This document shows positions 915 through 61,690 of a stretch of 64,000 nt of DNA, piece after piece. A model generated the notes under the pieces. The model saw nothing but the letters and a program-made list of their open reading frames with translations, was not told the origin of the DNA and searched no databases. The first letter of the stretch is position 1; each line of letters starts with the position of its first letter. Location: assembly GCF_040958095.1 (NCBI RefSeq), contig NC_091198.1:34438689-34502688 (forward strand), read 5' to 3'. This DNA is from Procambarus clarkii (taxonomy: Eukaryota; Arthropoda; Malacostraca; Decapoda; Cambaridae). The translations under genes were made by a program, and so were the position numbers.

Positions 915-2734
915 ATGGGTCTCAAGAAAGCCAGTGGTAAGGTTCAAGCCAAGAAATTGCATGTGAGGATGACAATAGAGGAAAAACAAGAGATCATTCG
1001 GAAGCATGAAAATGGTACGCGTGTTGTTGAACTTTGTAGGCAGTACAACAAATCCACATCAATGATATGCACTATACTTGCAAGAAAAAGGACATTATGA
1101 GTGCTAAAGTGGCAAAAGGCGTTATCTTCAGGTTATCTCGAGATGATTTCGGGGCTTTTAGTGTCCCCGCGGCCCGGTCCTCGACCAGGCCTCCACCCCC
1201 AGGAAGCAGCCCGTGACAGCTAACTAACACCCAGGTACCTATTTTACTGCTAGGTAACAGCATATCAACAATCACAAAACAAAGACCACAAATACTTTAG
1301 GATGTGGAAAAGTTGTTATTAATTTGGATACACAACAAGGAGTTAGCAGGTGATAGTGTTTCAGAGGCCATCATTTGTGAGAAGGCCAGGGTATAGCACG
1401 AAGATCTTGTAACCCCTGGAACGAGTGCAGATATGATAGACTTTAAGGCAAGTAGGGGATGGCTTGACAAATTTAAAAAAAGGAGTGGTATTCATAGTGT
1501 TGTGAGGCATGGGGAGGCTGCCAGCTCAGACAAACCAGCAGCTGAAAGATTTATTGAAGAATTTAGAGTATGTAGAGGCTGAGGGATACCTACCGCAACT
1601 AGTTTAATTGTGATGAGACAGGACAGTTCTGGAAAAGATTGCCTAAGAAGAAATACATTACCAAGGAGGAAAAATCATTGCCCAGACACAAGCCTATGAA
1701 AGATAGGTTTACGCTTGTGCTGTGTGGAAATGCGAGTGGCGATTTGAAAATTAAACCCCTGCTTGTGTATCATTCTGAAAATCCAAGGGTTTTCAAAAAG
1801 TATGGTGTACAGAAAAACCAAATGTGTGTGATGTGGAGGGCTAATAATAAGTCATGGGTGACTAGGATTATTTTTTACGGAGTGGGTGAATGATGTGGTC
1901 TGTCCTGCCATACAAAAATATCTGCAAGAGAAAAATTTGCCACTCAAGGCCCTGCTTCTCCTCGACAATGCTCCTGCTAGTCCTCCAGGCTTGGAAGATG
2001 CATTGTTGAACAGATACAGTAATTTTCTCACAGTAAAGTTCCTTCCTCTTAATACCACTCCCGTATTTAAGCCTATGGACCAGAAAATCATAGTGAATTT
2101 TAAGAAACTTTATGAAAGGGCACTTTTCTGGAAATGTTTTGAAGTAACTGAAGCCACAAACCTCACCCTCAAAGAGTTCTGGAAACACCATTTTAACATT
2201 TGTAGTGCTTTAAAACTTGTTGACAAAGCCTGGCAAGAAGTGACTCAAAGAACCCTGATCTCTGGCAGGAGAAATTTGTGGCCTAAATGTGTGCCAGAAC
2301 TAGACTTTGAGGGGTTTGAGCCTGTAAATGAAGTGCCCACTGTTGAGGAAATTGTTACTCTGGGCCGGAAAATGGGCTTGGAATTGGATGGTGCTGATGT
2401 GGAGGAGTTGGTGGAAGAACACAACGAAGAACTGACCACCAAAGAATTCCAAGCCCTTTAAAAGGAGCAGCAACAAGAGGCAGCTGAGGATATTTCTCCA
2501 GTGGAGGAGGATGAGGCAGAAGAGGATGTCCCTTTTGCAACCATTAGAAATGGGTGTCAGATGTGGGAAGAAATGCAAACTTTTATTGAAACGACTCACT
2601 CAAAGAAAGCTGTAGTAAGCCGTTGCATTAATCTTTTCAATGACAACGTGATGCCGCACTACAGACAAATGTTGCGAAGAAGGGAAAAACAATCTTCAAT
2701 GGATCGTTTCGTTGTGAGAAAAATCAAGCAGTGA
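915..2734 (+). pseudogene. Tigger-like transposase, broken
   Basis: Remains of a cut-and-paste transposase. The ATG at 915 opens an N-terminal CENP-B/psq-type helix-turn-helix (MTIEEKQEIIRKHENG, then Q-Y-N-K-S-T-S-M-I). The catalytic domain shows the first aspartate in NCDETGQFWK (codon 1,612-1,614), the second in LLLDNAP (1,964-1,966) and the third in KPMDQ (2,078-2,080), a DDD triad with 37 residues between the last two. The frame is lost at the SINE insertion near 1,120, shifts again near 1,886, and has an in-frame TAA at 2,459. Beyond it the same frame runs to TGA at 2,734 (acidic region, then HSKKAVVSRC). It cannot give a full protein as it stands. Confidence 0.82.
1120..1258 (-). repeat. 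tRNA-derived SINE, 5'-truncated
   Basis: The reverse complement matches the 3' two-thirds of the SINE at 6,012-6,262: 'ctgttacctagcag', 'aggtacctgggtgtta', 'gtcgaggaccgggccgc' and 'ccccgaaatcatctcgagat'. The tRNA-like head is missing. It sits inside the Tigger transposase, so it inserted after the Tigger element. Confidence 0.8.
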
Positions 2735-3209
2735 GCCACAACCAGGACCTAGTGGTAGGCAGGCAAAACATGCCAGAGAGTGCACTCCAGAAAAATCTTC
2801 ACTGCCTGATGTTATAATGGAAGGGGACTCCCCCTTCCAAACAGTAACACCTCTCCTCCCCATCTTCCATATGCCAACAGCAGTCATCAGCAAGGGTAAG
2901 TAATAACTTGAACATACTTTTGTAGTGTAGATTTTGATGAATTGGGTATAAAATTTAGTTTGAAGTGAGGTTTTTGGGAAGTCAGGAACAGATTAATTCA
3001 TTTTCCATTATTTCTTATGGGGAAATTAGCTTCGGTTTACAAGTTTTCGGGTTACGAGCTGTCTCCAGGAATGGATTAAACTCTTAAACCGAAGTACCCT
3101 GTAGTTACATATCAGCCTGAATAGCTCCGGGGAGCCCTGTCGGCTCCCCCCAACCCCCAGAAAAACAGTAACTGCCTACATTGCTAATGCATGCGACAAT
3201 ACAACTAAC

Positions 3210-3410
3210 CTGCAGCAAAGGCTTTTTCACTGCCAGTAAGAATAACGGCAGCAATACTGGGGTCACTTTCCAGATCTGTCAATGCCTGCTGGACTTCATT
3301 CATAAGCGGCGCACACAGAGCATTCAAGGCTTTCGGACGATTCAGTATAATCAAGCCAACACATCCAGCCTCTCCTTTCTTCTCAACCAGGATGTGTTCA
3401 TACACAGGAG
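3210..3410 (-). CDS. ECHS1: Enoyl-CoA hydratase, mitochondrial: exon 2
   Basis: A 201-bp exon of short-chain enoyl-CoA hydratase, the matrix enzyme that hydrates trans-2-enoyl-CoA in fatty acid and branched-chain amino acid breakdown. The translation contains [26 protein letters not shown] and [15 protein letters not shown], the first crotonase-fold block ending just before the ADIKEM-type oxyanion-hole segment. Splice signals fit: a pyrimidine-rich tract ending CAG just upstream (plus 3,411-3,413) and donor GTTAGT (plus 3,204-3,209). It enters with two bases of a split codon and leaves after the first base of the next (phase 1 at both ends), matching the phase of the exon 1 candidate at 11,350. 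Downstream exons are not visible to the left, so intron 2 is at least 3.2 kb. Confidence 0.9.
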
Positions 3411-14109: not shown

Positions 14110-17100
14110 AGTTAATAATCATTAGCTTAAATTTGCCTATGCTTATTATTCAACTTTTCTTTGATTTCATTTATTACCTAGGTTGCCTAGCCTCGCCATG
14201 CTCCCTTACTCCATTGTACCCCTGGCTTTGCCTGCATCTGAAATTGCAAATTGTTACTTACAGTGTACCTGAGGGTACTTGTAAGCAATCTACCTCATTT
14301 TTCCTTTTTGCTCAATTTGTTTTTGTATTGCTTAGTCTTGTTTATATTTTTGTTTTGTATTTCTATATCTTGTGTTTTGTATAGTCCATGTTTATATGTT
14401 TTTTCGTTAATCTCATTTATTACCTAGGTTGCCTAGCCTAGCCATACTCCCTTACTCCATTGTACCCCTGTAAGCCCCTTTTGTGTTTGCTTTGTACAGT
14501 ATTGTGTACATTTTTTTCCCTATTTTATAGCTTATTTCTACCTTGTTATTTGCCTTTCTTCCCTTGTTTTTCCTGCAATCAGCTTTTTTTTTATGCAGAC
14601 AAGTATAGACCCTGAACTTAACCTCTTATCCACTATCTATGACAATTATCACTTTAATGATCTAAATTGCAGATATTTTGCAGCACATGATGTAAACAAT
14701 GTATTAACTCATAATCACAATATCTCTGTAATCAATTTGAACGTTAGATCCCTAGGTAAACACTTTGATGATGTTAGTGCTTTGATTGAAGCTATTGACA
14801 ACAAATTCTCTTTTATTATACTTACTGAAACATGGTTGAAAGAGGATACTACTCAGCTCTTTAACATGCCTAACTACTCAGCAATTCACAACTGTCGTCA
14901 ACTTCAGAGAGGTGGTGGCACTGCTCTTTACTACCACCAAGAACTAACATGCTTAAAAGAAATTAGAACCAGAGACTGCTATGGGGAGTATATCTTCGCC
15001 AGCTTCAGAGTCAAGGGTGCCGAGTCTGTCCCGACGGTGGGTGCAGTTTATAGAATTCCTAACACTGATGTGTCCGAATTCAACTCAAACCTTAGAAATC
15101 TAATATTTGATAACAGACTGAACAAAAACCACCTAATTATCGCAGGGGACTTTAATATTGACCTCTGCGAACCTGAACACCCTACTGCTGTTAGCTTCCT
15201 CAACTGTATGAATTCCTGCTTCCTCATACCCTTAATCACTAGACCTACTAGAATCACTGATAGCACTGCCACGACGCTAGATCACATCTGGACAAACATA
15301 ACCTCTCCGCTTACTTCAGGTATAATCACCGATAGCACTACAGACCATTACCCCACATTTCATTAGCAAACCACCTCTTGAGTCAAGAGTGATACGTTTT
15401 AGACTACACAATGAAACTGCTATAGACAATTTTATAACTGCTGCTGATAATGTCAACTGGGAGTCCGAGTTAGGTAACATAGTGGACATCAACCTAGCAG
15501 TGCAATCTTTTCTTCAAAAAACTCTTAGCCTTTATAATACCCACTGTCCTATGCTTACAAAACAAGTCACAACCAAAAGGCTAAACAATCCCTGGCTTAC
15601 AAAGGGAATACTTAAATCTATTAATAAAAAACATGACCTTGAGAAGAAGTATAGGTTAGGAATTGTCTCCAAAGAATTCTCAAAGAATTACTCATTATTG
15701 CTGTCTAAGATAATTAGACGAGCCAAAACTAAATACTACGAAGATAAATTTACCCAAATAAAGAGCAACATTAAACAAACTTGGAGAACAATTTCTCAAA
15801 TATTGGGATCAAAGAAGTCTTTAAATAACAAACCGACTCTCCTGTCTAATAACGATGGTCAGCTTTCAGCCTCTGATTCTGCTATTGAGTTCAATAGGTT
15901 CTTCTCTTCCATTGGTTCATCCCTTGCAAATGATATTCCATCTTCCAGTACAGACATTAAGGACTATCTTACAGGTAACTATCCACAGTCTCTGTACCTA
16001 AAGCCTATTAATTCCACTGACGTCAATGAGATAATCCTTTCCCTTAAAACCAAGTCTGGTGCCCTTGAGGAGATACCAACTTTTATTTACAAAAAAGCCT
16101 CCAGATCTTTAGCCCCTGCTATTGCTTTGCTCTTCAACAAGTCACTTGAACTCCAAACCTTCCCAGATATTCTAAAAAAAGCGAGAGTAACGCCTGTCCA
16201 CAAATGTGGTAATCTCACAGATGTTAACAACTACAGACCTATATCTATCCTGCCAAACTTGTCAAAAAATTTTGAAAAACTAATCTATAAGCAGCTTTAC
16301 TCATATCTAGCCAAACTCAATATACTTAGCCCTTGCCAATATGGCTTCAGACCCAAAAAAAGCACTAACGATGCACTTATTAGTATGCTTAATTCGATTC
16401 ATACAGCTCTTGATAAAAATGAGTTCCCTGTTGGGTTGTTTGTGGACCTGCGTAAAGCTTTTGATACTGTCAACCACCAAAACCTTCTTCTTAAATTACA
16501 TCATTATGGAGTCAGAGGACACTCCCTACAATACCTCAAATCCTACCTTACTGACAGGCTCCAATATGTTTCTGTGAATAATACAATTTCTCCCACCCTA
16601 CCCATCAACATTGGTGTTCCCCAGGGCAGCATACTTGGCCCTCTCCTCTTTCTCATCTACATTAATGACCTTCCAAATGCCTCCCAACACCTCAAACCAA
16701 TTCTATTTGCTGACGACACAACCTTCATTTACTCCAGTCCTGATCCCCTTGCTCTAAATGCCACAGTAAATACTGAGTTAAATAAAGTCCATCTGTGGCT
16801 AACTGCCAACAAACTCACCCTTAACATTGACAAAACCTTCTATATTCTGTTTGGCAATAAATCCTCTAATCAAATAAATCTCAAAATAAACAATACCCAA
16901 ATTTGTAACAAATTAGATGGCAAATTCCTTGGCATTCTCATTGACCACAAGCTGAATTTCCAGAGACACATTCTAAACATATCAAAAAAAGTTTCAAAAA
17001 CTGTGGGCATTCTTTCTAAGATCAGATATTATGTACCACGCCCTGCCCTGGTGACTCTCTATTACTCCCTTATCTATCCATATCTCAACTATGGTATTTG

Positions 17101-29565: not shown

Positions 29566-30190
29566 GTTACGAATCTTACTAGGATTCTGCCATTACTCTT
29601 GATTCTCATATTACTTTATTGTCTTGTTCTCTAATTAATATTGCATCCAGTTGTATGATATAAGATTTTGTATGTTATATATATAACATAGCATGCTGTG
29701 TAGTGTGTGTGAGGCTTTTGGTGTTAGATTTCTCATGTAGTTTCTCCGTGTGGGCGATTGACCATATTTGGATATGGCCAGTGTGGGAACATTGTTGTCA
29801 ACCGAGTGTTTATAGTTTTACCTTGATTTATTCCCATATTTGGTTGCCGTATTATTGTATGGAATGTTGTACCAGTGTTTACTACTCTTTAGTTTGACAA
29901 TGTGTTGAATATTAGTGCTGCATTTTGTTATTAGAATTTCCACAATGTTTATGTGCACGTTTAGTTGATTTTTTGGTAGACGTTTAGTCGACTATTATTT
30001 TATTCAAAATATGGGAGATTGGTATCAACATCAGTTGTATCCAGACCACGGTTGTGTGCGGTCGCTAGGTTGGCGCTCTTGGCGTCCGCTGGTTGGTGGG
30101 AGGTGGAGGATTGCCCCACACTCTTCGTTTTTGCACGTGGTGATACAGGATATTGTGCATTTGTTCTCGATTATTGACAACGTCGAAGAA

Positions 30191-31666
30191 ATGGCTGAGG
30201 CGTTATGCCTAAGTGGTAGTGAGGAGGACAGACAAGATGATAATCGACCGTTTGAATTAGTAGTGAACAAAAAGAAACGGAGAAATAATAACAGACAGCG
30301 AGACAGTGAGAGTGACGATGAGATTGCAAAGAGACCAAAGAATGAGACCTTACTCAGCAAGACTCAAGACAAGCAAGACAAGACAAGAAGGAAGAGGCTG
30401 TTGTTCCCTACAACATGCCAATTGAATTTCCACCAAAAGCTAAAGTGGACGGTACGTCTAGCTAAACAATGTTTGGAATACGAACCACTTTTCAAGGAGG
30501 GTCTTCACTGGCCCTACATAATAGTTGGGACTGAACAGGCCGTGGAACGCCTCACGACGGTTGGTTTTGAGAATGTAGTGATGGTTCCTCCAGAAGAAGG
30601 TATGTTGCACACAAAGATCATAGTTTTCAAGTTTCCAACTTACTTGGATCCTGAGTGTCTTCTTCTTAACAATGATAATGTTGTCTGGGCGAAGAGGAAT
30701 AGTGTTCGTGGTGACAAACGAAGCCAGGTTGATGCCTTGGTAAAGGGTGAGGCGCCGGAGAAAATTTTTGTGCAAGGACTAGGCTATAGGAACGTTGCAA
30801 AATACGTTGAGGAGCCCATACTGTGCATGAAGTGTTCACGTTGGGGACATATGGCATGGAAATGCCAGTTTGACCCCAGGTGTCGGTATTGTGGGAAAAA
30901 TCACGACTCGCGAGAGTGTAGAGTCAAGATTGAAAGAAGTGAAAAAATCATCCCATTTTGTTGCAACTGTCGAGGCAGCCACAATGCTGGTTCCTCTCTA
31001 TGCCCCATGAAGCCTCATCTGAAAGAGACTAGAACGGGTCCTACAAGCAGGATAGATGTATCCTCGCAGCAAGGAAAAATTGTGCAAGAGGAACATGGAG
31101 GAAACAGTTGGAAGCCAACGGCAGCCCCTATGATCAATGTGTGGGAAAAAGGGACGGAGAAAGTAAAGGCGAGCTTAGGGAAAGTACATCATGCAGTGGA
31201 AAAACTGAAACCTTGTGACGACAAGGTTCAGGACAATATGGTCACCTCTGAGGTTGGTAATCAAATTTTGGAGTATCTAAAAAAACTAGATAAGAGGATT
31301 GAGGCATTGGAAAAATTGGCTATGGAAGGTGGACGGGGTGCAGATGGTGGTGAAACAGGATGTGTAATTGAAAGTAAAACGAGACGTGAAATGGAAAGTG
31401 AAACGTGCGTAGAAGAAAGTAATGATGTGCATGAGGTAACGATGATAGAGGATAGTCAGGAGAATACACTTTCTAGTAGTGTTAGCGGTGTTCAACCTCC
31501 TGTTGTGACAAATGGTGAAAGAACGGTTAAAGTAAAACGGGTTACAGAAATAACAAAGAAAATAGATATGAAAAATATTACCTGCGATGTTAGTAGTAGT
31601 TGTGAAGGTGAGGAGAAAGAAAAAATGTTACGGTGTTGGAAGGAAGATTCTAAGGTACTCTTGTAA
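30191..31666 (+). CDS. I-like-1 ORF1: nucleic-acid-binding Gag-like protein
   Basis: 491 residues from the ATG at 30,191 (MAEALCLSGSEEDRQ). The frame is open 60 codons further upstream, but that part looks like leader. It has an acidic then basic N-terminus (KKKRRNNNRQRDSESDDE), a central globular region, then three zinc knuckles at residues about 212-275: CMKCSRWGHMAWKC, CRYCGKNHDSREC and a looser CCNCRGSHNAGSSLC. The C-terminal half is Lys/Glu-rich with a short coiled-coil-like LEYLKKLDKRIEALEKL. This is the usual ORF1 of I/Jockey-type elements and would bind the RNA. The frame is intact. Confidence 0.88.
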   Translation: MAEALCLSGSEEDRQDDNRPFELVVNKKKRRNNNRQRDSESDDEIAKRPKNETLLSKTQDKQDKTRRKRLLFPTTCQLNFHQKLKWTVRLAKQCLEYEPLFKEGLHWPYIIVGTEQAVERLTTVGFENVVMVPPEEGMLHTKIIVFKFPTYLDPECLLLNNDNVVWAKRNSVRGDKRSQVDALVKGEAPEKIFVQGLGYRNVAKYVEEPILCMKCSRWGHMAWKCQFDPRCRYCGKNHDSRECRVKIERSEKIIPFCCNCRGSHNAGSSLCPMKPHLKETRTGPTSRIDVSSQQGKIVQEEHGGNSWKPTAAPMINVWEKGTEKVKASLGKVHHAVEKLKPCDDKVQDNMVTSEVGNQILEYLKKLDKRIEALEKLAMEGGRGADGGETGCVIESKTRREMESETCVEESNDVHEVTMIEDSQENTLSSSVSGVQPPVVTNGERTVKVKRVTEITKKIDMKNITCDVSSSCEGEEKEKMLRCWKEDSKVLL

Positions 31667-31713
31667 CTCATGGAATGTGACGGACAGGGCAAAGGTAGTT
31701 TTATTATTAATCA

Positions 31714-32759
31714 TGGATGAAAGTAAATTGAGAATATTATCTTGGAACATTAATGGATTAAAAACTAGAGCGGTGGATGTACACTATTATACTCTTAGAG
31801 AGGATATTGACATAGTAGCACTCCAGGAAACTGAGGATAGGGATGGTAGCATACTGAGGCTAAATGGCTATAGAGGCTTTCACTTATATGCTGATGGAGG
31901 AACTAGGGGGTCTCATGTTATGTCAAAAGTACCATACCTGCCGAGATAACTGGAATCCCTCAGAGATATAGAGGTATTGAAAGTATTAGCTTGCGGATAC
32001 AATTAAAGGACCGAGAGTTAAATTTCATTAATCTATACATCTCTGATAGCTCCCTTGATTTACGATACTTGCCAGATTCCTTCTTTTCTGAAGATACACT
32101 TGTGGTAGGGGATTTTAATGCCAGACATCCAGCTTTAGGATCAAGGGGTAAAGCAAATAGGAATGGTTGCAGATGGTACCAGTTTTTGCAGGAACATGAA
32201 GATGTTCAACTGCTGGGCGAGCCCTCTCCTACTCATTTGAGGGGAGGGAGATTAGATTATGCTTGTTTAATAAATGCTGAGGGCATAGAGGGGAATTGTC
32301 TTACTGTGGATGAAATGCTAAGTGATCATTTTGCATTACAAATACAGCTTAAACTAGATAAAAAGCATGCCTGCCTTCAGAGGAAAAGGTTAAAGTTTAA
32401 TGAGGGAGAATTAAGGGGTCTTGTTGGCCATATTAAGTCTTGGTATGATACTTATAAGCCGGTTTCGGCAGAAGCATTTTATGAAGATTTAATTAAGGAG
32501 GTAGATGTATTTAATGCAACATTGAACCGGAAACCATCTAGTATAAAAAGGCATCCACCCAGAAAAGAAAATTATACACATGACAAGATGCTTAAGGGGT
32601 GGACATTAACAATGAGGAGAGCTCACAGAGATTGGAATAGGAATGGTAGGACTGAGGAAGGGAAGAATGCTTTACTGGCAGTTGCTAGGCTGTGTGGGGA
32701 GAAGAGAAAGGAAATTAGGGGCAAGTATTGGCAGGAATTTGCAGAGAAAGTTGGGAGAA
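31714..32759 (+). pseudogene. I-like-1 ORF2 N-terminus: AP endonuclease, one frameshift
   Basis: Starts MDESKLRILSWNINGLK (31,714). Endonuclease motifs are WNINGL, VALQET, LVVGDFNARHP (about 32,100), GGRLDYACLIN and LSDHFALQI. A frameshift lies between about 31,930 and 31,990; the first piece stops at 31,949 and the second is open from 31,991. It would nick target DNA. It is cut at 32,759 by the CR1-oct cluster; the RT and RNase H parts are at 42,431 onward. Confidence 0.85.
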
Positions 32760-32779
32760 CATAAGAACATAAGAACATG

Positions 32780-34448
32780 TGGGGATTTCGATGTGGATTC
32801 AGTATGTAACTTGTTTGGGAGTATTCTAGACGGAGCACAGGAGCGTGGTGTGCCATGCAGGTTGAATGGATCGAGTGCTAGTGACCCGGGGTGGATGGCA
32901 GGGAGTTTGGGGAGCCTTGTAGGTGGGGGGAGAGCTTGGTACAGGAGGATTGAGGGTGGGGAGGTCGCTTTGGAACGGGAGTTCGTGCAACTGGTTGGAG
33001 GTGTTAAGGGGGAGATGGGGAGAGCGGGGAGAGGCTGTGAAGTTCGCATGGCGGGGCGAGCAAGGACGGGTCCTGGAGGTTTTTTTCGGTTGTATCGTGC
33101 TGGGACTGGGGAAGGGATGGGTCCATTAGGGGCTGAGACGGGTCAAGTAGCAGATGGTGGTGGGGAGATGGGTGGTATTTTTGATAAGTGTTTTGTATCT
33201 GTATTTGCTAGGGAGGAACTTGGCAATATGCCTTCGGCCGAGCAGGTCTGTGTGGGTGGGGGCGAGGACGGGTTGACGAGTTTGGCAGTTGCCAGGGAGG
33301 ATGTTCTTAAACAAATGGTGGGGCTCGGGCCGGGCAGGTCCCCGGGGCCGGATGAGGTGTTTGCTGGGGTGCTTGGGGAGTGCAAGGAGGAGCTTTGTGA
33401 CCCACTGTCAACCATGTTTGGTGGATCAATAGGGTCGGGCAGAGTGCCGGAGTTTTGGAGGGTTGCTGGTGTGATGCCAGTTTTTGGGAAGGGAGATGGA
33501 TCACTTGCGTCTAGCTATCGACCAGTTGGCCTGGCGTCTGTTGTGGGAGGGTTGCTCGAGTCTATGATGGCGGATGGAGTTCGTCTTCATCTTGAAAAAC
33601 ATGGATTGGTAGTTGAGTCGCAGCATGGTTTTGTAGGTGGCCGTTCGTGTTTGACGGGTTTGTTATCTTTTTGTTCTAGCATTGTTGAGGCGGTTGATAG
33701 TGGTGGGGATTGCGATGTTGTGTGCCTTGACTTTGGCAAGGCTTTTGATACAGTGCCACATGAAAGACTGATTAAAAAAATAGAGTCTCATGGTATTGGG
33801 GGTGCTATATTAAGCTGGATTAGGGCATGGCTATACCAAAGGAAACAGAGAGTTAGTATAAATGGAATCAAGTCAGAGTGGGAAAATGTTGTAAGTGGAG
33901 TGCCTCAAGGCTCTGTCCTGGGACCTCTGTTGTTTATAATATATATAAATGATTTAGATTCAGGTTTGAGTAGCAACATTTGCAAATTTGCCGATGATAC
34001 GAAAATCGGTAGGGAAATTAATTCGGAGGAGGACTCACTATCACTTCAAGTTGATCTAGATAGGGTTTTGAAATGGTCAAAGGATTGGCAGATGCAGTTT
34101 AATGCTGATAAATGTAAAGTTCTGAGGTTAGGTAATGATGATAGAGTTACAAGATACGAGCTAGATGGTGTTGTGATTGCGATGTCGGATTGCGAAAGGG
34201 ATCTGGGAGTTATGATTAGTAAGAATTTAAAACAAAAGGATCAATGCATAAATGTTCGTAATAAGGCAAATCGGACACTTGGATTTATTAATCGCAGCGT
34301 TAGTAACAAGACACCTGGTGTGGTTCTCAAGCTATATCTTGCTCTAGTTAGGCCCCATTTAGATTATGCAGTTCAGTTTTGGTCGCCATATTATAGAATG
34401 GATATAAATTCACTTGAACGTGTCCAGCGTAGGATGACTAAGTTAATT
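32780..34448 (+). pseudogene. CR1-oct copy E1, 5' part with an A-to-G hypermutated tract
   Basis: Covers the linker and RT of the CR1-oct protein. From 32,802 to 33,740 it differs from E2 and E8 at roughly 190 positions; I find only A-to-G changes plus one G-to-T (near 33,080). After 33,740 it is essentially identical to E2 (one A-to-T near 34,182). Protein effects are Lys to Gly/Arg, Asn to Gly/Ser, Thr to Ala, Ile to Met/Val and Tyr to Cys, while FDTVPHERLIKKIES onward is unchanged. The frame stays open. RT motifs (YLDF to CLDF; FADDTKIG intact near 33,990) are largely kept, but the fingers region is remodelled. The copy stops at 34,448 where E2 was inserted and resumes at 37,601. Confidence 0.93.
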
Positions 34449-36704
34449 TATGGAATAGACCAGTAGGAGAAAATTCTGTTAAAGTGCCAGATTTTCGAAA
34501 AGCTGATTTTAATAGCCTAAGAAATTTTTTGGGTCAAATTGATTGGAATGGCTTGGGTATGGGGTGTGGGCCGGTCTTGGAGCGAGACATGAACCCAGCG
34601 ATAGGTGACTTAAATGGGGATTTCGATGTGGATTCAATATATAACTTATTTAAGAATATTCTAAACAAAGCACAGGAACGTAGTATACCATACAAATTGA
34701 ATAGATCGTATACTAATGACCCAAAGTGGATAACAAAGAATTTGAAGAACCTTATAGGTAAAAAGAGAGCTTGGTACAAAAGGATTAAAAATGGGGAGGT
34801 CACTTTAGAACAGGAATTCGTACAACTGGTTAGAAATGTTAAAAAAGAGATAAGGAAAGCAAAAAGAAACTATGAAGTTCGCATAGCAGGGCAAGCAAAG
34901 ACAAATCCTAAAGGGTTTTTTCAGTTATATCGTACTAAGACTAGGGAAAGGATAGGTCCATTAAAAACTGAGACAGGTCAAATAACAGATAGTGATGAAG
35001 AGATGAGTAGTATTTTTAATAAATATTTTGTATCTGTATTTACTAAAGAGGAACTTAACAATATGCCTTCAGCCGAACAAGTCTATGTGGGTGGGGACGA
35101 GGACAGGTTGACGAGTTTAGCAGTTACCAGGGAGGATGTTCTTAAACAAATAGTAAAACTCAAACCAAACAAATCCCCAGGGCCGGATGAAGTGTTTGCT
35201 AGGGTGCTTAAAGAATGCAAAGAGGAGCTTTGTGACCCACTGTCAACCATATTTAATAAATCAATAGAGTCAGGCAGAGTGCCAGAGTTTTGGAAAGTTG
35301 CTAATGTGATACCAGTTTTTAAGAAAGGAGATAGATCACTTGCGTCTAACTATCGACCAATTAGCCTAACGTCTATTGTGGGAAAGTTACTCGAATCTAT
35401 AATAGCAAATAAAATTCGTCTTCATCTTGAAAAACATAAATTAATAATTGAGTCGCAACATGGTTTTATAAATGGCCGTTCATGTTTAACAAATTTGTTA
35501 TCTTTTTATTCTAGCATTGTTGAGGCAGTTGATAGTGGTAAGGATTGCGATGTTGTATACCTTGACTTTAGCAAAGCTTTTGATACAGTGCCACATGAAA
35601 GACTGATTAAAAAAATAGAGTCTCATGGTATTGGGGGTGCTATATTAAGCTGGATTAGGGCATGGCTATACCAAAGGAAACAGAGAGTTAGTATAAATGG
35701 AATCAAGTCAGAGTGGGAAAATGTTGTAAGTGGAGTGCCTCAAGGCTCTGTCCTGGGACCTCTGTTGTTTATAATATATATAAATGATTTAGATTCAGGT
35801 TTGAGTAGCAACATTTGCAAATTTGCCGATGATACGAAAATCGGTAGGGAAATTAATTCGGAGGAGGACTCACTATCACTTCAAGTTGATCTAGATAGGG
35901 TTTTGAAATGGTCAAAGGATTGGCAGATGCAGTTTAATGCTGATAAATGTAAAGTTCTGAGGTTAGGTAATGATGATAGAGTTACAAGATACGAGCTAGA
36001 TGGTGTTGTGATTGCGAAGTCGGATTGCGAAAGGGATCTGGGAGTTATGATTAGTAAGAATTTAAAACAAAAGGATCAATGCATAAATGTTCGTAATAAG
36101 GCAAATCGGACACTTGGATTTATTAATCGCAGCGTTAGTAACAAGACACCTGGTGTGGTTCTCAAGCTATATCTTGCTCTAGTTAGGCCCCATTTAGATT
36201 ATGCAGTTCAGTTTTGGTCGCCATATTATAGAATGGATATAAATTCACTTGAACGTGTCCAGCGTAGGATGACTAAGTTAATTCCCCAAATTAGAAATCT
36301 TTCATATGAAGAAAGATTAACAAAGCTTAAGTTGCATTCACTGGAAAGGCGAAGAGTTAGGGGTGACATGATAGAGGTTTACAAGTGGATGAATGGACAT
36401 AACCGGGGGGAAATTAATAGGGTATTAAAAGTATCAACACAGGACAGAACACGAAACAATGGATATAAATTGGATAAGTTTAGATTTAGGAAAGACTTGG
36501 GTAAATACTGGTTCAGTAACAGGGTTGTTGATTTGTGGAACCAATTGCCGCGTAACATTGTGGAGGTGGGGTCCCTCGATTGTTTCAAGCACGGGTTGGA
36601 CAAGTATATGAGTGGGATTGGGTGGTTATAGAATAGGAGCTGCCTCGTATGGGCCAATAGGCCTTCTGCAGTTACCTTTGTTCTTATGTTCTTATGTTCT
36701 TATG
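34449..36704 (+). mobile_element. CR1-oct copy E2, longest plus-strand copy
   Basis: Begins within the endonuclease-RT linker ('atggaatagaccagtagg') and runs to the 3' UTR and octamer tail (36,680-36,704). Its frame (34,484-36,631, 715 residues) is uninterrupted: NYRPISLTSIVGKLLE, QHGFINGRSCLTNLL, VVYLDFSKAFDTVPH, GVPQGSVLGPLLFIIYIND and KFADDTKIGREI, then the CR1-type C-terminal domain (IRNLSYEERLTKLKL, RVVDLWNQLPRNIV). With no endonuclease it could not insert alone. It serves as the unedited reference for E1. Confidence 0.92.
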
Positions 36705-37600
36705 AGTAGCAACATCTGCAAATTTGTAGATGATACAAAAATCGGTAGGGAAATTAACACGAAAGAAGACTCGCTATCACTTCACGTTGATCTAAATAGG
36801 GTTTTAAAATGGTCAAAAGATTGGCAGATGCAGTAATGCTGATAAATGTAAGGTTCTGAGGCTAGGTAATGATGATAGAGTTACAAGATACGAGCTAGAT
36901 GGTGTTGAGATTGCGAAGTCGGATTGCGAAAGGGATCTGGGAGTTATGATTAGTAAGAATTTAAAACAAAAGGATCAACGCATGATTATTCGTAATAAGG
37001 CGAATAGGACACTGGGGTTTATTAATCGAAGCGTTAGTAACAAGACACCTGGTGTGGTTCTTAAGCTATATCTTGCTCTGGTTAGGCCCCATTTATATTA
37101 TGCAGTTCAGTTTTGGTCGCCGTACTATAGAATAGATATAAATTCACTTGAACGTGTCCAGCGTAGGATGGCTAAATTAATTCCCCAAATTAGAAATCTT
37201 TCATATGAAGAAAGATTAACAAAGCTAAAGTTGCATTCACTGGAAAGGCGAAGAGTTAGGGGTGACATGATAGAGGTTTACAAGTGGATGAATGGACATA
37301 ACAAAGGGGGATATTAATAGGGTATTAAAAGTATCAACACAAGACAGAACACGAAACAATGGGTATAAATTGGATAAGTTTAGATTTAGGAAAGACTTGG
37401 GTAAATACTGGGTCAGTAACAGAGTTGTTGATTTGTGGAACCAATTGCCGCGTAACGTGGTGGAGGTGGGGTCCCTGGATTGTTTCAAGCGTGGGTTGGA
37501 CATGTATATGAGTGGGATTGGGGGTTATAAATAGGGGCTGCCTCGTATGGGCCAATAGGCCTTCTGCAGTTGCCTTTGTTCTTATGTTCTTATGTTCTTA
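36705..37600 (+). repeat. CR1-oct copy E3, 5'-truncated and more diverged
   Basis: Starts abruptly at 'agtagcaacatctgcaaatt' right after the E2 octamer tail and ends in its own octamers (37,577-37,600). It has a 1-2 base loss near 36,835 and a frameshift near 37,310, and differs from the other copies at scattered sites of all types, so it is older or from another subfamily. Confidence 0.85.
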
Positions 37601-38015
37601 TTCCCCAAATTAGAAATCTTTCATATGAAGAAAGATTAACAAAGCTTAAGTTGCATTCACTGGAAAGGCGAAGAGTTAGGGGTGACATGATAGACGTTTA
37701 CAAGTGGATGAATGGACATAACCGGGGGGATATTAATAGGGTATTAAAAGTATCAACACAGGACAGAACACGAAACAATGGATATAAATTGGATAAGTTT
37801 AGATTTAGGAAAGACTTGGGTAAATACTGGTTCAGTAACAGGGTTGTTGATTTGTGGAACCAATTGCCGCGTAACATTGTGGAGGTGGGGTCCCTCGATT
37901 GTTTCAAGCACGGGTTGGACAAGTATATGAGTGGGATTGGGTGGTTATAGAATAGGAGCTGCCTCGTATGGGCCAATAGGCCTTCTGCAGTTACCTTTGT
38001 TCTTATGTTCTTATG
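37601..38015 (+). repeat. CR1-oct copy E1, 3' end
   Basis: Starts 'ttccccaaattagaaatc', exactly where E1 stopped at 34,448 ('actaagttaatt'), so it is best read as the remainder of E1 after E2 and E3. It has the C-terminal domain, the 3' UTR and the tail GTTCTTATGTTCTTATG (to 38,015). No excess of A-to-G is seen here. Confidence 0.75.
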
Positions 38016-38625
38016 GCTATACCAAAGGAAACAGAGAGTTAGTATAAATGGAATCAAGTCAGAGTGGGAAAATGTTGTAAGTGGAGTGCCTCAAGGCTCT
38101 GTCCTGGGACCTCTGTTGTTTATAATATATATAAATGATTTAGATTCAGGTTTGAGTAGCAACATTTGCAAATTTGCCGATGATACGAAAATCGGTAGGG
38201 AAATTAATTCGGAGGAGGACTCACTATCACTTCAAGTTGATCTAGATAGGGTTTTGAAATGGTCAAAGGATTGGCAGATGCAGTTTAATGCTGATAAATG
38301 TAAAGTTCTGAGGTTAGGTAATGATGATAGAGTTACAAGATACGAGCTAGATGGTGTTGTGATTGCGAAGTCGGATTGCGAAAGGGATCTGGGAGTTATG
38401 ATTAGTAAAAATTTAAAACAAAAGGATCAATGCATAAATGTTCGTAATAAGGCAAATCGGACACTTGGATTTATTAATCGCAGCGTTAGTAACAAGACAC
38501 CTGGTGTGGTTCTCAAGCTATATCTTGCTCTAGTTAGGCCCCATTTAGATTATGCAGTTCAGTTTTGGTCGCCATATTATAGAATGGATATAAATTCACT
38601 TGAACGTGTCCAGCGTAGGATGACT
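38016..38625 (+). repeat. CR1-oct copy E5, 5' part
   Basis: Begins 'gctataccaaaggaaaca' directly at the E1 tail and covers RT palm to thumb (GVPQGSVLGP, FADDTKIG). It breaks after 'ggatgact' where E6 is inserted and resumes at 39,641. Confidence 0.82.
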
Positions 38626-39640
38626 ACGCTGGACACTCGCAAGTCAGAGTGGGAAAATGTTGTAAGTGGAGTGCCTCAAGGCTCTGTCCTGGGACCTCTG
38701 TTGTTTATAATATATATAAATGATTTAGATTCAGGTTTGAGTAGCAACATTTGCAAATTTGCCGATGATACGAAAATCGGTAGGGAAATTAATTCGGAGG
38801 AGGACTCACTATCACTTCAAGTTGATCTAGATAGGGTTTTGAAATGGTCAAAGGATTGGCAGATGCAGTTTAATGCTGATAAATGTAAAGTTCTGAGGTT
38901 AGGTAATGATGATAGAGTTACAAGATACGAGCTAGATGGTGTTGTGATTGCGAAGTCGGATTGCGAAAGGGATCTGGGAGTTATGATTAGTAAGAATTTA
39001 AAACAAAAGGATCAATGCATAAATGTTCGTAATAAGGCAAATCGGACACTTGGATTTATTAATCGCAGCGTTAGTAACAAGACACCTGGTGTGGTTCTCA
39101 AGCTATATCTTGCTCTAGTTAGGCCCCATTTAGATTATGCAGTTCAGTGTTGGTCGCCATATTATAGAATGGATATAAATTCACTTGAACGTGTCCAGCG
39201 TAGGATGACTAAGTTAATTCCCCAAATTAGAAATCTTTCATATGAAGAAAGATTAACAAAGCTTAAGTTGCATTCACTGGAAAGGCGAAGAGTTAGGGGT
39301 GACATGATAGAGGTTTACAAGTGGATGAATGGACATAACCGGGGGGATATTAATAGGGTATTAAAAGTATCAACACAGGACAGAACACGAAACAATGGAT
39401 ATAAATTGGATAAGTTTAGATTTAGGAAAGACTTGGGTAAATACTGGTTCAGTAACAGGGTTGTTGATTTGTGGAACCAATTGCCGCGTAACATTGTGGA
39501 GGTGGGGTCCCTCGATTGTTTCAAGCACGGGTTGGACAAGTATATGAGTGGGATTGGGTGGTTATAGAATAGGAGCTGCCTCGTATGGGCCAATAGGCCT
39601 TCTGCAGTTACCTTTGTTCTTATGTTCTTATGTTCTTATG
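38626..39640 (+). repeat. CR1-oct copy E6, inserted in E5
   Basis: Starts with 11 bp (38,626-38,636) that are the exact reverse complement of 38,606-38,616, then 'aagtcagagtgggaaaatg'. It runs through RT, C-terminal domain and octamer tail (to 39,640). ATGACT before (38,620-38,625) and after (the end of the tail into 39,641) looks like a 5-6 bp target duplication. The joined E5/E6/E5 frame stays open (38,005-39,567). Confidence 0.82.
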
Positions 39641-40067
39641 ACTAAGTTAATTCCCCAAATTAGAAATCTTTCATATGAAGAAAGATTAACAAAGCTTAAG
39701 TTGCATTCACTGGAAAGGCGAAGAGTTAGGGGTGACATGATAGACGTTTACAAGTGGATGAATGGACATAACCGGGGGGATATTAATAGGGTATTAAAAG
39801 TATCAACACAGGACAGAACACGAAACAATGGATATAAATTGGATAAGTTTAGATTTCGGAAAGACTTGGGTAAATACTGGTTCAGTAACAGGGTTGTTGA
39901 TTTGTGGAACCAATTGCCGCGTAACATTGTGGAGGTGGGGTCCCTCGATTGTTTCAAGCACGGGTTGGACAAGTATATGAGTGGGATTGGGTGGTTATAG
40001 AATAGGAGCTGCCTCGTATGGGCCAATAGGCCTTCTGCAGTTACCTTTGTTCTTATGTTCTTATGTT
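39641..40067 (+). repeat. CR1-oct copy E5, 3' end
   Basis: Starts 'actaagttaattcccc', continuing from 38,625, and ends in octamers that meet the inverted octamers of E8 at about 40,067. Confidence 0.78.
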
Positions 40068-42409
40068 CATAAGAACAAAGGTAACTGCAGAAGGCCTATT
40101 GGCCCATACGAGGCAGCTCCTATTCTATAACCACCCAATCCCACTCATATACTTGTCCAACCCGTGCTTGAAACAATCGAGGGACCCCACCTCCACAATG
40201 TTACGCGGCAATTGGTTCCACAAATCAACAACCCTGTTACTGAACCAGTATTTACCCAAGTCTTTCCTAAATCTAAACTTATCCAATTTATACCCATTGT
40301 TTCGTGTTCTGTCCTGTGTTGATACTTTTAATACCCTATTAATATCCCCCCGGTTATGTCCATTCATCCACTTGTAAACCTCTATCATGTCACCCCTAAC
40401 TCTTCGCCTTTCCAGTGAATGCAACTTAAGCTTTGTTAATCTTTCTTCATATGAAAGATTTCTAATTTGGGGAATTAACTTAGTCATCCTACGCTGGACA
40501 CGTTCAAGTGAATTTATATCCATTCTATAATATGGCGACCAAAACTGAACTGCATAATCTAAATGGGGCCTAACTAGAGCAAGATATAGCTTGAGAACCA
40601 CACCAGGTGTCTTGTTACTAACGCTGCGATTAATAAATCCAAGTGTCCGATTTGCCTTATTACGAACATTTATGCATTGATCCTTTTGTTTTAAATTCTT
40701 ACTAATCATGACTCCCAGATCCCTTTCGCAATCCGACTTCGCAATCACAACACCATCTAGCTCGTATCTTGTAACTCTATCATCATTACCTAACCTCAGA
40801 ACTTTACATTTATCAGCATTAAACTGCATCTGCCAATCCTTTGACCATTTCAAAACCCTATCTAGATCAACTTGAAGTGATAGTGAGTCCTCCTCCGAAT
40901 TAATTTCCCTACCGATTTTCGTATCATCGGCAAATTTGCAAATGTTGCTACTCAAACCTGAATCTAAATCATTTATATATATTATAAACAACAGAGGTCC
41001 CAGGACAGAGCCTTGAGGCACTCCACTTACAACATTTTCCCACTCTGACTTGATTCCATTTATACTAACTCTCTGTTTCCTTTGGTATAGCCATGCCCTA
41101 ATCCAGCTTAATATAGCACCCCCAATACCATGAGACTCTATCTTTTTAATCAGTCTTTCATGTGGCACTGTATCAAAAGCTTTGCTAAAGTCAAGGTATA
41201 CAACATCGCAATCCTTACCACTATCAACTGCCTCAACAATGCTAGAATAAAAAGATAACAAATTTGTTAAACATGAACGGCCATTTATAAAACCATGTTG
41301 CGACTCAATTATTAATTTATGTTTTTCAAGATGAAGACGAATTTTATTTGCTATTATAGATTCGAGTAACTTTCCCACAATAGACGTTAGGCTAATTGGT
41401 CGATAGTTAGACGCAAGTGATCTATCTCCTTTCTTAAAAACTGGTAACATTAGCAACTTTCCAAAACTCTGGCACTCTGCCTGACTCTATTGATTTATTA
41501 AATATGGTTGACAGTGGGTCACAAAGCTCCTCTTTGCATTCTTTAAGCACCCTGGCAAACACTTCATCCGGCCCTGGGGATTTGTTTGGTTTGAGTTTTA
41601 CTATTTGTTTAAGAACATCCTCCCTGGTAACTGTTAAACTCGTCAACCTGTCCTCGTCCCCACCCACATAGACTTGTTCGGCTGAAGGCATATTGTTAAG
41701 TTCCTCTTTAGTAAATACAGATACAAAATATTTATTAAAAATACTACTCATCTCTTCATCACTATCTGTTATTTGACCTGTCTCAGTTTTTAATGGACCT
41801 ATCCTTTCCCTAGTCTTAGTACGATATAACTGAAAAAACCCTTTAGGATTTGTCTTTGCTTGCCCTGCTATGCGAACTTCATAGTTTCTTTTTGCTTTCC
41901 TTATCTCTTTTTTAACATTTCTAACCAGTTGTACGAATTCCTGTTCTAAAGTGACCTCCCCATTTTTAATCCTTTTGTACCAAGCTCTCTTTTTACCTAT
42001 AAGGTTCTTCAAATTCTTTGTTATCCACTTTGGGTCATTAGTATTCGATCTATTCAATTTGTATGGTATACTACGTTCCTGTGCTTTGTTTAGAATATTC
42101 TTAAATAAGTTATATATTGAATCCACATCGAAATCCCCATTTAAGTCACCTATCGCTGGGTTCATGTCTCGCTCCAAGACCGGCCCACACCCCATACCCA
42201 AGACTTTCCAATCAATTTGACCCAAAAAATTTCTTAGGCTATTAAAATCAGCTTTTCGAAAATCTGGCACTTTAACAGAATTTTCTCCTACTGGTCTATT
42301 CCATTCTATGCTAAATCTGATTTCTTTGTGATCACTGCTCCCTAGCTCACTCCCTATTTCGATGTCATTAATTTGCGTTTCCCTGTTAGTTAACACTAAA
42401 TCTAAACAA
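40068..42409 (-). mobile_element. CR1-oct copy E8, inverted
   Basis: Tail at the left ('cataagaacaaaggtaactg'), 5' end near 42,409 in the last part of the endonuclease (LVLTNRETQINDIEIG, then SSDHKEIRFSIEWNRP with the conserved SDH). It has two overlapping frames (42,408-41,434 and 41,456-40,125), separated by a 2-base loss near 41,447 relative to E2. Otherwise it is nearly identical to E2. It reaches further 5' than any plus copy and forms long inverted repeats with all of them. Confidence 0.9.
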
Positions 42410-42430: not shown

Positions 42431-45212
42431 AGTAACAGAAACTTGAAGGAAATCTGGCAAGACGTAAATAAAATAAGGGGTAAAAAGCACAATTTTGTTG
42501 CACATCCAGACCCGCAAGGAATTGCAAATGGGCTCGTAAATAAATGGGCGGAAGCTGCCAAACTTAGTTCATTACCCGCTGTAACGAGAGAGTCATTAGA
42601 TTCTTGGAAAGATCTAAGAAAGGATTTTATACTTATAGCAGGTAACAGTGGTGATGTCACTTGCACAGGTATTACCAGAGAAGAACTAATAACGGCGATT
42701 AAAGTTGGGAAATCTACCGCCCCTGGGGAGGATGGAGTAACTTATGAAATACTTAATGAACTTGCCACTATGACGAAAAGCCCACTTTTAGACCTCTTTA
42801 ATATTAGTTATAAAGAGGGCAGTATTCCCAGTAAATGGAAAAAAGCTATGATCATCCCCATCCCTAAAGCCAATGGAGAGTATAGACCTGTGTCTTTAAC
42901 CTCGTGTTTTTGTAAAATGATGGAGAGGATCATTTTAAATAGACTTTTATATATAATAGGTGATCAGCTGTCTAGTAATTTGTTCGGGTTCCTCAAAGGA
43001 AAAAGTACCTCTGATTGTATTATTAAATGTCTAGCTAATGAAACTGATTATTATAGAATTTTCATTGATTTACAAGGAGCTTTTGATAAAGCCAACAAAG
43101 AGGTTATTTTATATGAATTAGCTAGTCTTGGTGTTAAAGGGAAATTATTGCGCTTGATAGGGGATTATCTTTACGAAAGGAAGGCTCAGGTGTGGTATCA
43201 AGGTTGTATGTCAGGTGTGAGGTCTTTTGAACTCGGCACACCTCAGGGAGGAGTGTTGAGTCCCACCCTGTTTAATGTACTAATGAATAAGATAGCATCT
43301 GAGAGATACTCAAATGGGGTAACTCCGATCATATATGCCGATGATATTTTGTTTCAGGGCAAAGATATTTCAAAGGTTCAAACAGTGTTGGACAATTTCG
43401 GAAACCTGTGTCACCATATGGGACTGGTGGTTAATGAAAACAAAACTAAGTTTGAATGTAGAAGTCGGAGCCCCATTGTTTTGAAAATAAACGATAAAAA
43501 TATAGAGAGAGTTAATATATATAAATATTTAGGCATATATGTTGGATATACCCATGAGAGTTTGGAAGCTGAGATGAACAGACTGTTGGGTCAATGTCGG
43601 AAGAGATTACAACCTCTGAAGGCTTTGGCATGCTGTGGAAAGGGAGTGGGAGTCCCTGTGCTACGAATGTTATACTTGAGTACTGTAAGATCTCTTATTG
43701 ATTATGCTGCACCTGTCATTTCTTGTTTTGGTAAAGGTAGGATGGGCAAGTTGGAGAAGGTACAAAATGAAGCAATGAGAATTATCTTAGGATGCCCAAG
43801 AAATGCTATGATTGAGATAATGAGGATGGAGTTGAATCTGCAGAGTATTGGGGATAGAATTTCAGAGATAAATGTAGCCTCTGCCATTAGATTAATGAGA
43901 GGTGGGGGAGCTAATGAATTAATCCTCTCGGTTCAAAAGGTGGGAAGTAGTGAACAGTGTATAATGAAGAAGAGAGTATATATGAATAAATTATGTTATA
44001 ATGTTATAAAGTATGATGTTATTACAGAGTGTATTGCTGTGCCCAAGAGAAAATTTACACCACCATGGGAGGATTGTAATGTAGATGTAGTAATTACTCC
44101 CTTGCATAAGAAAAAATGTATGTATGAAATAGGAGAGCTGAGGGCAACATATGATTGTATAATTAGAAAACTGCCTACGGAAAACACTCTACATGTATAT
44201 TGTGATGGGTCAGTAGCTAGGGATGGGAAGGCAGGATGTGGAGTCTTGATCAGGGAGTACACTGACATCGGCACTGTAGATACTGTTATTGGACGCCGCT
44301 TAACTGACAATGTCTCTGCAACGCAGGCTGAACTCCAAGGAGTATTAGCAGGATTACAGGAAGTAGTCAAATGTGGTAAAAATGCTTGCTTCTTTATTGA
44401 CAGCAGAGGAGCGTTAGAGTCTTTAAATAGCAGACGCCCAGTATATCAGAATATTGTGATAGAGTGTAGAGAGAATGTTAAGAGACTAGAAAAAACTGGG
44501 TATAAAGTAAGATTCATGTGGATCCCTTCACACATTCACAAGGGAGACATCTCCCGTCACGCAGGGTGCAGTCGCGCCTCCACAGATCTCCAGTATCATC
44601 TATTGATACTGGTGATGGCTCAAAAGGGCCACCACTTACGGGCTATTCATGCCCGTGCCACCTTTTGGGTGGCTTAATCTTTATCAATCAATCGATCATT
44701 CACATGTGGGAATACTGTTGAATGAGGTAGTTGATGACATAGCGAAGAGAGCCACTGAAAAAACTCTTGTTGATGTTGTATGTCAGTTAACCTTGAAACA
44801 AATAAAAACAAGACTCAAGGTGATTCAGGAGGGTGAAGAAATGATAAAGAGAATGGCAATGGTGGACAGTAGTAACACACTTAAGAATTATTCAATAATA
44901 AATACAAATTCGTCCTTCACTTATGGTAAAGGAAAGTCTACTTGGAAGGATTCAATTTACATGAGATTACGATTAGGATATAAATATATCTGGCAATACG
45001 GTGTTGATGTCAGTGAAAAAGATAAGGAGTGTAAATTATGTAGTATGCCGTACGCCCACACCTTAGAACATTATGTATTAGAGTGTCACCTTATTGAAAA
45101 CTATAGAAATAAGGAAATAAATAGTGTACCACATCAAATTGTTTGGATGTGTGATAATGGTATTATAGACAGTATACTTAGGAGCTACAAGAATTTTGCC
45201 CCAAGAATGTAA
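42431..45212 (+). pseudogene. I-like-1 ORF2 C-terminal part: RT, RNase H, zinc knuckle
   Basis: RT motifs are STAPGEDGVTYEIL, YRPVSLTSCFCKMMERI, IFIDLQGAFDKANKEV, LGTPQGGVLSPTLFNVLM and IIYADDILFQ (YADD at 43,334-43,345). RNase H has VYCDGSVARDG (about 44,198), TQAELQGV and FFIDSRGALES, and is then broken within MWIPSH by the 166-bp insert. After the insert VGILLNEVVDDIAKR and the knuckle CKLCSMPYAHTLEHYVLEC follow, to the stop at 45,210-45,212. Apart from the inserts the frame is clean. The open frame extends left to 42,362 into the inverted CR1 copy, which is accidental. Confidence 0.9.
44533..44698. mobile_element. Small non-autonomous element built of successive hairpins
   Basis: 166 bp, flanked by TTCACA (44,527-44,532 and 44,699-44,704); the uninterrupted RNase H copy at about 18,940-18,965 lacks it. 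It contains four clean stem-loops: GGGAGA/TCTCCC (44,542-44,555), CCAGTATCA/TGATACTGG (44,590-44,612), ACGGGC/GCCCGT (44,638-44,656) and GCCACC/GGTGGC (44,657-44,673). An (ATCA)n-like end follows. No protein and no clear tRNA boxes. Probably a SINE-like element; I do not know its family. Confidence 0.75.
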
Positions 45213-60860: not shown

Positions 60861-60930
60861 GGCTACCTATGTGTTTTTTGTTCCAACTTTCTCGTTTCTG
60901 CATTCATTCTCGGTATTGCCCTTATCTGGT

Positions 60931-61690
60931 ACTTGGGCAATAGTTTGGTGCAGTACAGTATTTATGCGGTACTTGGGCAACAGTTCGGTGCAGTACATTA
61001 TTTATGCGGTACTTGGGCAACAGTTCGGTGCAGTACATTATTTATGCGGTACTTGGGCAACAGTTCGGTGCAGTACATTATTTATGCGGTACTTGGGCAA
61101 CAGTCTGGTACAGTACAGTGTTTTTGCAGTACTTGGGCAACAGTCCAGTGCAGTACATTGTTTATGCGGTACTTGGGCAACAGTCCAGCGCAGTACAGTG
61201 TTTGTGGTATTTGGGCAACAGTCTGGTGTGGTACAGTGTTTATGCGGAATCAGTCCGGTGCCGTTCAGTGTTTATGCGGTACTTGGGCAACAGTCTGGTA
61301 CAGTACATTGTTTATGCAGTACTTGGGCAACGGTCTGGTACAGTACATTGTTTATGCAGTACTTGGGCAAGAGTCCTGTACGGTACAGTGTTTATTCAGT
61401 ACTTAGGCAACAGTTCGGCGCAGTACAGTGTTTATGTGGTGCTTGGGCAACAGTTCAGTGCAGCACATTGTTTATGCAGTACTTGGGCAACAGTCCTGTA
61501 TGGTACAGTGTTTATGTGGTGCTTGGGCAACAGTTCAGTGCAGTACATTGTTTATTCAGTACTTAGGCAACAGTTCAGTGCAGTACAGTGTTTATGTGGT
61601 ACTTGGGCAACAGTCTGGTGTGGTACAGTGCTTATGCGGAATCAGTCCGGTCTCGTTCAGTGTTTATGCGGTACTTGGACAACAGTCTGC
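60931..61690. repeat. 40-bp minisatellite, about 19 units
   Basis: Unit GGTACTTGGGCAACAGTTCG, then GTGCAGTACATTATTTATGC. Units at the left are nearly identical and those to the right vary; two units are shortened ('gcggaatcagtccggt' at about 61,243 and 61,637). Because 40 is not a multiple of 3, all three plus frames stay open and give a 40-residue period; these are not genes. Confidence 0.95.

Follow-up and report, generated by a model that had tools for sequence, protein, structure and literature searches.

A-to-G tracts in genomic copies of a CR1-like LINE of Procambarus clarkii suggest ADAR editing of element RNA before reverse transcription

One retrotransposon copy in the crayfish Procambarus clarkii differs from its relatives nearby almost only by A-to-G changes, all of them within one bounded tract. 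How could the mark of an RNA-editing enzyme come to stand in inherited DNA, and does it occur more than once? The copy lies in a window of 64,000 nucleotides (C49:34438689-34502688 of the 4.03 Gb assembly, G000), which is the whole stretch of DNA that was analysed. An initial annotation of this window had proposed that the RNA of the element was heavily edited and then reverse transcribed into the genome. The features are as follows.

29969..32764, forward strand: host LINE X, left part (open frames)
32780..34448, forward strand: copy E1 of a CR1-like LINE, 5'-truncated (alignment)
32802..33740, forward strand: hyperedited tract of E1 (alignment and substitution count against E2)
34450..36704, forward strand: unedited copy E2, the reference for comparison (RVT_1 domain in the open reading frame 34442-36631)
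36705..39637, forward strand: further nested, truncated, unedited copies of E1's element
39638..40066, forward strand: probable 3' remainder of E1 with a (TTCTTATG)n tail (15 shared bases)
40068..42304, reverse strand: inverted, unedited copy E8, whose tail meets that of E1
42431..44677, forward strand: host LINE X, right part (open frames and paralogue alignment)

When E1 (32780-34448) was aligned with E2 (34615-36283), 191 substitutions were counted and 188 of them were A>G. The outermost A>G changes fell at 32802 and 33740, exactly the limits that had been drawn by hand, and all 188 lay inside them. The remaining changes were T>A at 32874, G>T at 33080 and A>T at 34183, one each, and G>A, T>C and C>T were absent from the computed alignment, as had been claimed. 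Against E8 we counted 189 A>G, five other substitutions and a 2-base gap. Among these five, only the G>T at 33080 and the A>T at 34183 were private to E1. At 32874 E1 agrees with E8, which has A there; the difference is hence private to E2. With 32874 scored as in the reference used, 189 of the 355 adenines within the tract were changed, about half as first described, and none of the 227 on its 3' side; positions 33741-34448 are unedited and differ from E2 only by the A>T at 34183. The edited fraction depended strongly on the 5' neighbour, at 99/139 (.71) after A, 62/89 (.70) after T, 21/54 (.39) after C and 6/68 (.09) after G, and the comparison of 5' G with all other 5' neighbours (Fisher p = 8e-18) bore out the remark that adenines after G are mostly untouched. 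An independent segment search placed the tract at 165-1126 in E2 coordinates. When the window was scanned against itself and against the loci gathered, E1 alone appeared as the edited side of one-way clusters within the window; the other clusters found were edited CR1-like loci set against E1's neighbours.

E1 belongs to a nest of copies of one element. A paralogue that begins at 45402 matches window positions 32438-32761 with its bases 1-324 and positions 42431-42709 with its bases 319-597, and since adjoining stretches of one paralogue match both flanks, the nest sits inside LINE X. The 15 bases ATGACTAAGTTAATT close the first part of E1 (34434-34448) and also open the piece at 39638-39652. 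Because their presence at both ends resembles a target-site duplication, 39638..40066 is the probable remainder of E1, which would have been split later by further copies flanked by ATGACTAAGTTAATT. The left junction of E1 lies in the same (CATAAGAA)n repeat as the tail of E8, and E1 was therefore probably inserted into that tail, so that E8 would have come first; E8 itself extends beyond 42304, towards roughly 42404. At 38627-38640, where two nested copies meet, adjacent bases (cgctggacac) recur as a short inverted copy, and elsewhere in the window a 40-bp tandem repeat of about 18 copies occupies 60928-61639.

As to the identity of the element, an RVT_1 domain is present in both E1 and E2, endonuclease domains are listed for its relatives and for the gene model P0123, and it is a non-LTR element. 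Most copies end in (TTCTTATG)n and not in poly(A), and an 8-bp repeat at the 3' end in place of poly(A) is a feature of CR1-clade LINEs. The proteins of the element share about 37-51% similarity with bird and turtle proteins. From these sequence features we regard it as CR1-like; the octopus-type name (CR1-oct) used in the initial annotation found no support, the host being a crayfish. With an unedited 800-nt query, all 40 places scored were 100% identical (rounded), which indicates a young family. A 475-aa protein from a JGI record (P0001, on a 1517-base contig) was 100% identical to part of E2's product, presumably from crayfish DNA in a metagenome.

The genome search that the initial annotation called for was carried out with the E1 tract as query. 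It gave 2255 candidates, of which 40 were scored, yielding 41 rows: E1 itself, 39 further places at 81-90% identity and one 107-base piece, where an unedited copy such as E2 would score about 80% against the tract. Thirty loci were fetched from these rows and all 30 carried an A>G tract. Eight unedited loci were used as controls only. One of the fetched loci, L009, is E1 again (= L001), and after the pattern-identical L025, L031 and L034 (= L024, L029 and L033) had been dropped, 27 distinct copies remained of the 30, E1 included. Four places outside this first set, taken from a genome-wide pattern search described below, were also examined. L076 (142 A>G, 5 other changes) and L077 (103 A>G, 11 other) were edited, as was L079 (C63:28723000-28724300), with 239 A>G next to 93 other differences from E2; L078 had 3 A>G and was unedited, a background of one in four among the sampled places of that search. 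The editing of L079 despite its divergence suggests that the process may be old or may touch a related subfamily. In all, at least 30 distinct copies examined (27 + 3) thus have a delimited A>G tract on the sense strand, with an ADAR-like neighbour preference, while their remaining bases and their 3' part are preserved.

The spectrum of the 27 copies was as one-sided as that of E1. Inside the tracts, 6384 of 13250 reference adenines read G, and all other changes together amounted to 157 over 37407 sites. On the 3' side of the tracts, A>G fell to 72 of 5587 adenines, with 72 other changes over 17942 sites; 41 of the A>G changes outside main tracts belong to L026, which is weakly edited there. 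The rate of changes other than A>G was the same inside (0.42%) and outside (0.40%). Among the minor classes inside tracts were 16 A>T and 7 A>C (of the 13250 adenines) and 27 T>C of 10432 T, while the classes expected from an APOBEC enzyme were so few (G>A in 8 of 8708 G, C>T in 10 of 5017 C) that APOBEC hypermutation was rejected. The edited fraction by 5' neighbour was.69 for T,.60 for A,.36 for C and.14 for G, and by 3' neighbour.55 for G,.50 for A,.44 for C and.42 for T. The strong 5' bias that the initial annotation asked to be counted was therefore present both in E1 alone and over the 27 copies, and clustered A>G changes without other classes, together with a disfavoured 5' G, are the footprint of ADAR hyperediting.

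Frequency and strand were assessed at a single 35-mer. With A or G allowed at every A, it matched 11435 places in the genome, and its backward control none. A forced form, in which six preferred adenines were changed and at most three mismatches were allowed, matched 63 places, 40 of them with at most two mismatches, against none for its control. The antisense T>C mirror of this forced 35-mer matched no place genome-wide, and such a sense-strand bias, 63 to 0 at one 35-mer, is again a feature of the ADAR footprint. Because several of the 63 rows are repeats of a single pattern within a contig, the unique events are fewer than 63; the edited share at this segment, roughly 0.35-0.55% of copies, is to be taken as an upper range. 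The initial annotation had tied the wider meaning of the tract to its being common; at the place tested, it recurs at this share for E1's element. For a different abundant LINE (15900-16800 in the window), an A>G-converted probe revealed no edited copy among the 40 places scored of 1450 candidates, and its 41 matches all stood at 78-80%, the level of unedited copies. A general hyperediting of LINEs was rejected on this ground.

The following course of events would account for the tracts. A sense transcript of the element would form a partial duplex with antisense RNA from a second copy, and within this duplex a host ADAR would deaminate about half of all adenosines. The edited RNA would retain an unedited 3' end, at which target-primed reverse transcription could start; the enzyme would then read through the tract, copying inosine as G, and the edits would thereby be fixed in germline DNA. 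The antisense partner would probably arise because copies of the element tend to lie next to or within one another, in either orientation. The explanation offered at the outset, heavy editing of element RNA followed by reverse transcription, is supported by the one-way spectrum, the avoidance of a 5' G and the strand count of 63 against 0, and further by the intact 3' tails of most copies, their different flanks and a copy, L013, in which editing ends with the insertion. On these genomic comparisons we have little hesitation in placing the editing on RNA, before insertion; that the full course, partial-duplex editing of sense RNA by ADAR and then reverse transcription into germline DNA, took place appears very probable; the proposed nature of the duplex partner is the least secure point, though more likely right than not.

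The borders of the tracts bear on how edited and unedited parts came to be joined. They were determined by a hidden Markov model (HMM), with the genomic unedited copy L040 as reference for the 5' part. The model assigned a single tract to 24 of the 27 copies and a pair to L011, while L026 and L033 showed minor additional segments. A defined 3' border was present in 24 of 27 copies, at a different place in each, from 1812 to 3394 (the aligned element ends at 3507), and the 5' border of the main tract lay inside the copy in 11 of 27, L011 included, whose second tract lies further 5'. The edit rate did not fall towards the borders: among adenines with a 5' A or T, it still stood at.70 over the final 25 nt of the tract, and 5 of 481 were changed over the 100 nt that follow. 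In L026, editing drops from about half to a few percent and rises again, while the tracts of the other copies are sharp. The tracts of L018, L023 and L027 lie at different places and are nearly equal in length (about 1757, 1760 and 1754 nt), either by chance or through a fixed partner RNA. Such sharp borders without a fall in rate, different in every copy, together with the nearly clean 3' part, are also what template switching would leave, in which a reverse transcriptase would begin with an unedited template and then move over to a different RNA edited throughout, with the borders marking the jumps and ADAR still behind the edits. However, the 5' border inside 11 of the 27 copies would require a second jump, and L011 has two tracts. 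We regard this alternative as unlikely.

Far less plausible still is an error-prone reverse transcriptase of the kind at work in diversity-generating retroelements, which would misread A in its template. Those systems also show adenine-specific change tied to reverse transcription, in which a reverse transcriptase complex turns A into any base. That A alone is affected would suit such an enzyme, but A>T (16) and A>C (7) stay at background among the 13250 adenines, and the rate depends on the 5' neighbour, a base that the enzyme has not yet copied. Moreover, the 3' part of the same RNA was copied faithfully, and about 99.5% of copies at the place tested lack the forced-edit pattern. The crayfish copies share adenine specificity with diversity-generating retroelements, whereas their changes are A>G only and depend on the 5' neighbour; with 6384 A>G against those 16 and 7, a retroelement of this type was rejected.

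Descent of all tracts from one G-rich ancestor, the subfamily that the initial annotation had named as a test of its reading, has next to no probability. Three pairs of loci (L024/L025, L029/L031 and L033/L034) are pattern-identical, and the list of 63 places holds further repeats of one pattern on one contig, as a subfamily would predict. But each of the identical pairs lies on one contig and looks like a local duplication, and the 27 copies differ among themselves: of the 351 pairs, 350, each with 100 or more A sites in common, differed at 23-42% of these sites (median 34%). No pattern common by descent was detected among the 27, and E1's tract is not shared by the 26 other distinct copies, which differ in edited sites and in borders. 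The insertion flanks differ as well, most of them following an 8-bp tail. Since edited sites, borders and flanks all differ, the events were independent. The median Mantel-Haenszel odds ratio within triplets was 2.07, so the preference for particular sites extends beyond the triplet.

Equally hard to credit is ADAR acting on DNA, either on first-strand cDNA in an RNA:DNA hybrid or on genomic DNA, although PMC12925331 reports that ADARs can edit the DNA of such hybrids in model substrates. Editing of the first cDNA strand would yield T>C in the sense strand, which amounted to 27 of 10432 T in tracts and to 0 places genome-wide; this strand evidence counts against first-strand editing and not, by itself, against editing of the second strand. 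The tracts were read in assembled sequence, and runs of N stand at the edges of L012 and L035, but a sequencing or assembly artefact is scarcely conceivable with 30 of 30 fetched matches on many contigs, one neighbour preference, one strand and ordinary flanks.

With partial-duplex editing of the sense RNA as the preferred reading, the 3' end of the copies becomes of particular interest. In the 21 of 27 copies that reach at least position 3470, the last 113 nt held 5 A>G among 446 adenines (L016 3, L019 1, L028 1). If target-primed reverse transcription needs an intact 3' end, RNAs whose editing extends to that end would seldom be mobilised, and its near-clean state would thereby be explained. 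A rule that the 3' end is never edited was rejected because of these five changes and of an edited upstream 3' end in L077. At L013, an unedited copy directly upstream has 0 A>G, and editing stops at the 5' junction of the insertion. At L077 (reverse strand), the tract crosses a nested-copy junction near base 294: the final 50 nt of the upstream piece (E2 coordinates 1957-2250) contain 6 A>G, TTCTTGTG stands twice in its tail, and the following copy (from 629 on), edited as well, directly adjoins. The edited molecule, an RNA or a nest, therefore held two joined copies. Either the read-through RNA of the nest was edited and then retrotransposed, or the editing information was written in after nesting. 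The simple scheme is at odds with L077, which needs read-through RNA or post-nesting editing, and with the three A>G changes in the last 113 nt of L016. At the 5' junctions of L013, L014, L023 and L024, fold-back stems of 8, 12, 14 and 13 bp were observed (4 of 20 edited copies); among 500 random 60-mers, stems of at least 8 bp occurred in 3% and of at least 10 bp in 0.6%.

A source of antisense RNA is suggested by the arrangement of the element in the genome. Among the first 100 places of the 35-mer listed on contig C1, 60 had another copy within 10 kb and 37 had an inverted one, compared with 4-6 in 100 expected by chance in any orientation. The element thus clusters with itself in both orientations, which makes antisense or hairpin RNA likely. 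No copy was caught together with its antisense partner. Antisense pieces lie upstream of L011 and around L020, but they show no editing and do not fit the tract borders, and a nearby inverted copy was rejected as the partner of the given tract at these two loci. The deaminase domain PF02137 was found whole on contig C22 and in three pieces on C57, one of them with an internal stop. Judging by their translations, we take the C57 pieces to be ADAR-like and the C22 domain to be ADAT1-like, and one C57 piece, IESGEGTIP, presumably has its serine at the place that corresponds to Ser486 of ADAR2. In the accessible part of PMC5625713, a 3' G preference is tied to Ser486 of ADAR2, and A is given as the preferred 3' neighbour of an invertebrate group; the 3' order observed here (G, A, C, T) differs slightly from the latter and is partly in line.

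Precedents for such traces exist in retroviruses. ADAR-type A>G hyperediting has been described in retroviral sequence (RAV-1, avian leukosis virus, HTLV-2/STLV-3 and BLV; PMC8586724, PMC12925331, PMC8025556), and in the portions of these sources at hand the A>G clusters, in one case reaching nearly half of the adenosines, are ascribed to ADAR and seen after reverse transcription, as here. Unlike the crayfish case, these are LTR viruses in infected animals or cells, with short tracts (about 70 bp in BLV); the crayfish case concerns a LINE, with kilobase tracts at tens of loci of a reference genome. APOBEC editing of retrotransposons, seen as G>A clusters in genomic traces (PMC2873906), is likewise a marking of retroelement copies in genomic DNA by a host deaminase, but acts by deamination of C in cDNA; in the available text of that work, the clusters in DNA are put down to G>A/C>T, and A>G/T>C is reported not to be enriched in the high-quality DNA traces. 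Hyperediting of inverted repeats in transcripts, such as Alu pairs or those of a survey of Metazoa (PMC5625713, PMC4982230), resembles our case in that dsRNA of inverted copies is edited in clusters with 5' G disfavoured; as far as these sources go, it is known in RNA, whereas the crayfish edits stand in DNA. Transposable elements are active in Procambarus species, with LINEs at low divergence, according to the part of PMC10454600 consulted. For a LINE, no report of ADAR-hyperedited copies in a germline genome was found in the literature searched, which was without most subscription journals and without preprints.

RNA editing is usually viewed as leaving no heritable trace, whereas in the crayfish a trace stands in inherited DNA at tens of loci. 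We lean slightly towards the broader view that RNA editing by ADAR has repeatedly mutated one LINE lineage in the germline of P. clarkii, fed by self-nesting, often inverted copies whose read-through and antisense RNA would pair in part, with edited RNAs rescued when the 3' end is clean. If so, each edited copy would be the fossil of one dsRNA molecule, with the start and end of its duplex and the preference of its enzyme, and the copies together would provide fossil maps of germline dsRNA. An edited copy would be dead and would dilute its family, and ADAR would mutate the element through the element's own reverse transcription. The role of ADAR in retroelement (Alu) evolution 'has not yet been determined' according to the accessible text of PMC4982230, and whether ADAR shapes or suppresses retroelements would become testable by sequence alone. 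One-way A>G tracts in young LINEs would offer a simple screen for other genomes, and annotated 'genes' that are edited LINE pieces would be included in it.

Five gene models named P. clarkii (P0121-P0125) look like such pieces, and each of their contigs (C79, C38, C72, C48 and C13) also has a fetched edited locus. Sense codons cannot become stops by A>G, so edited copies keep long frames and are annotated as genes. For P0121, 13 protein matches were obtained among the 8000 best word-sharing candidates scored; the five at 72% or more were all from P. clarkii, and the other eight stood at 23-41%.
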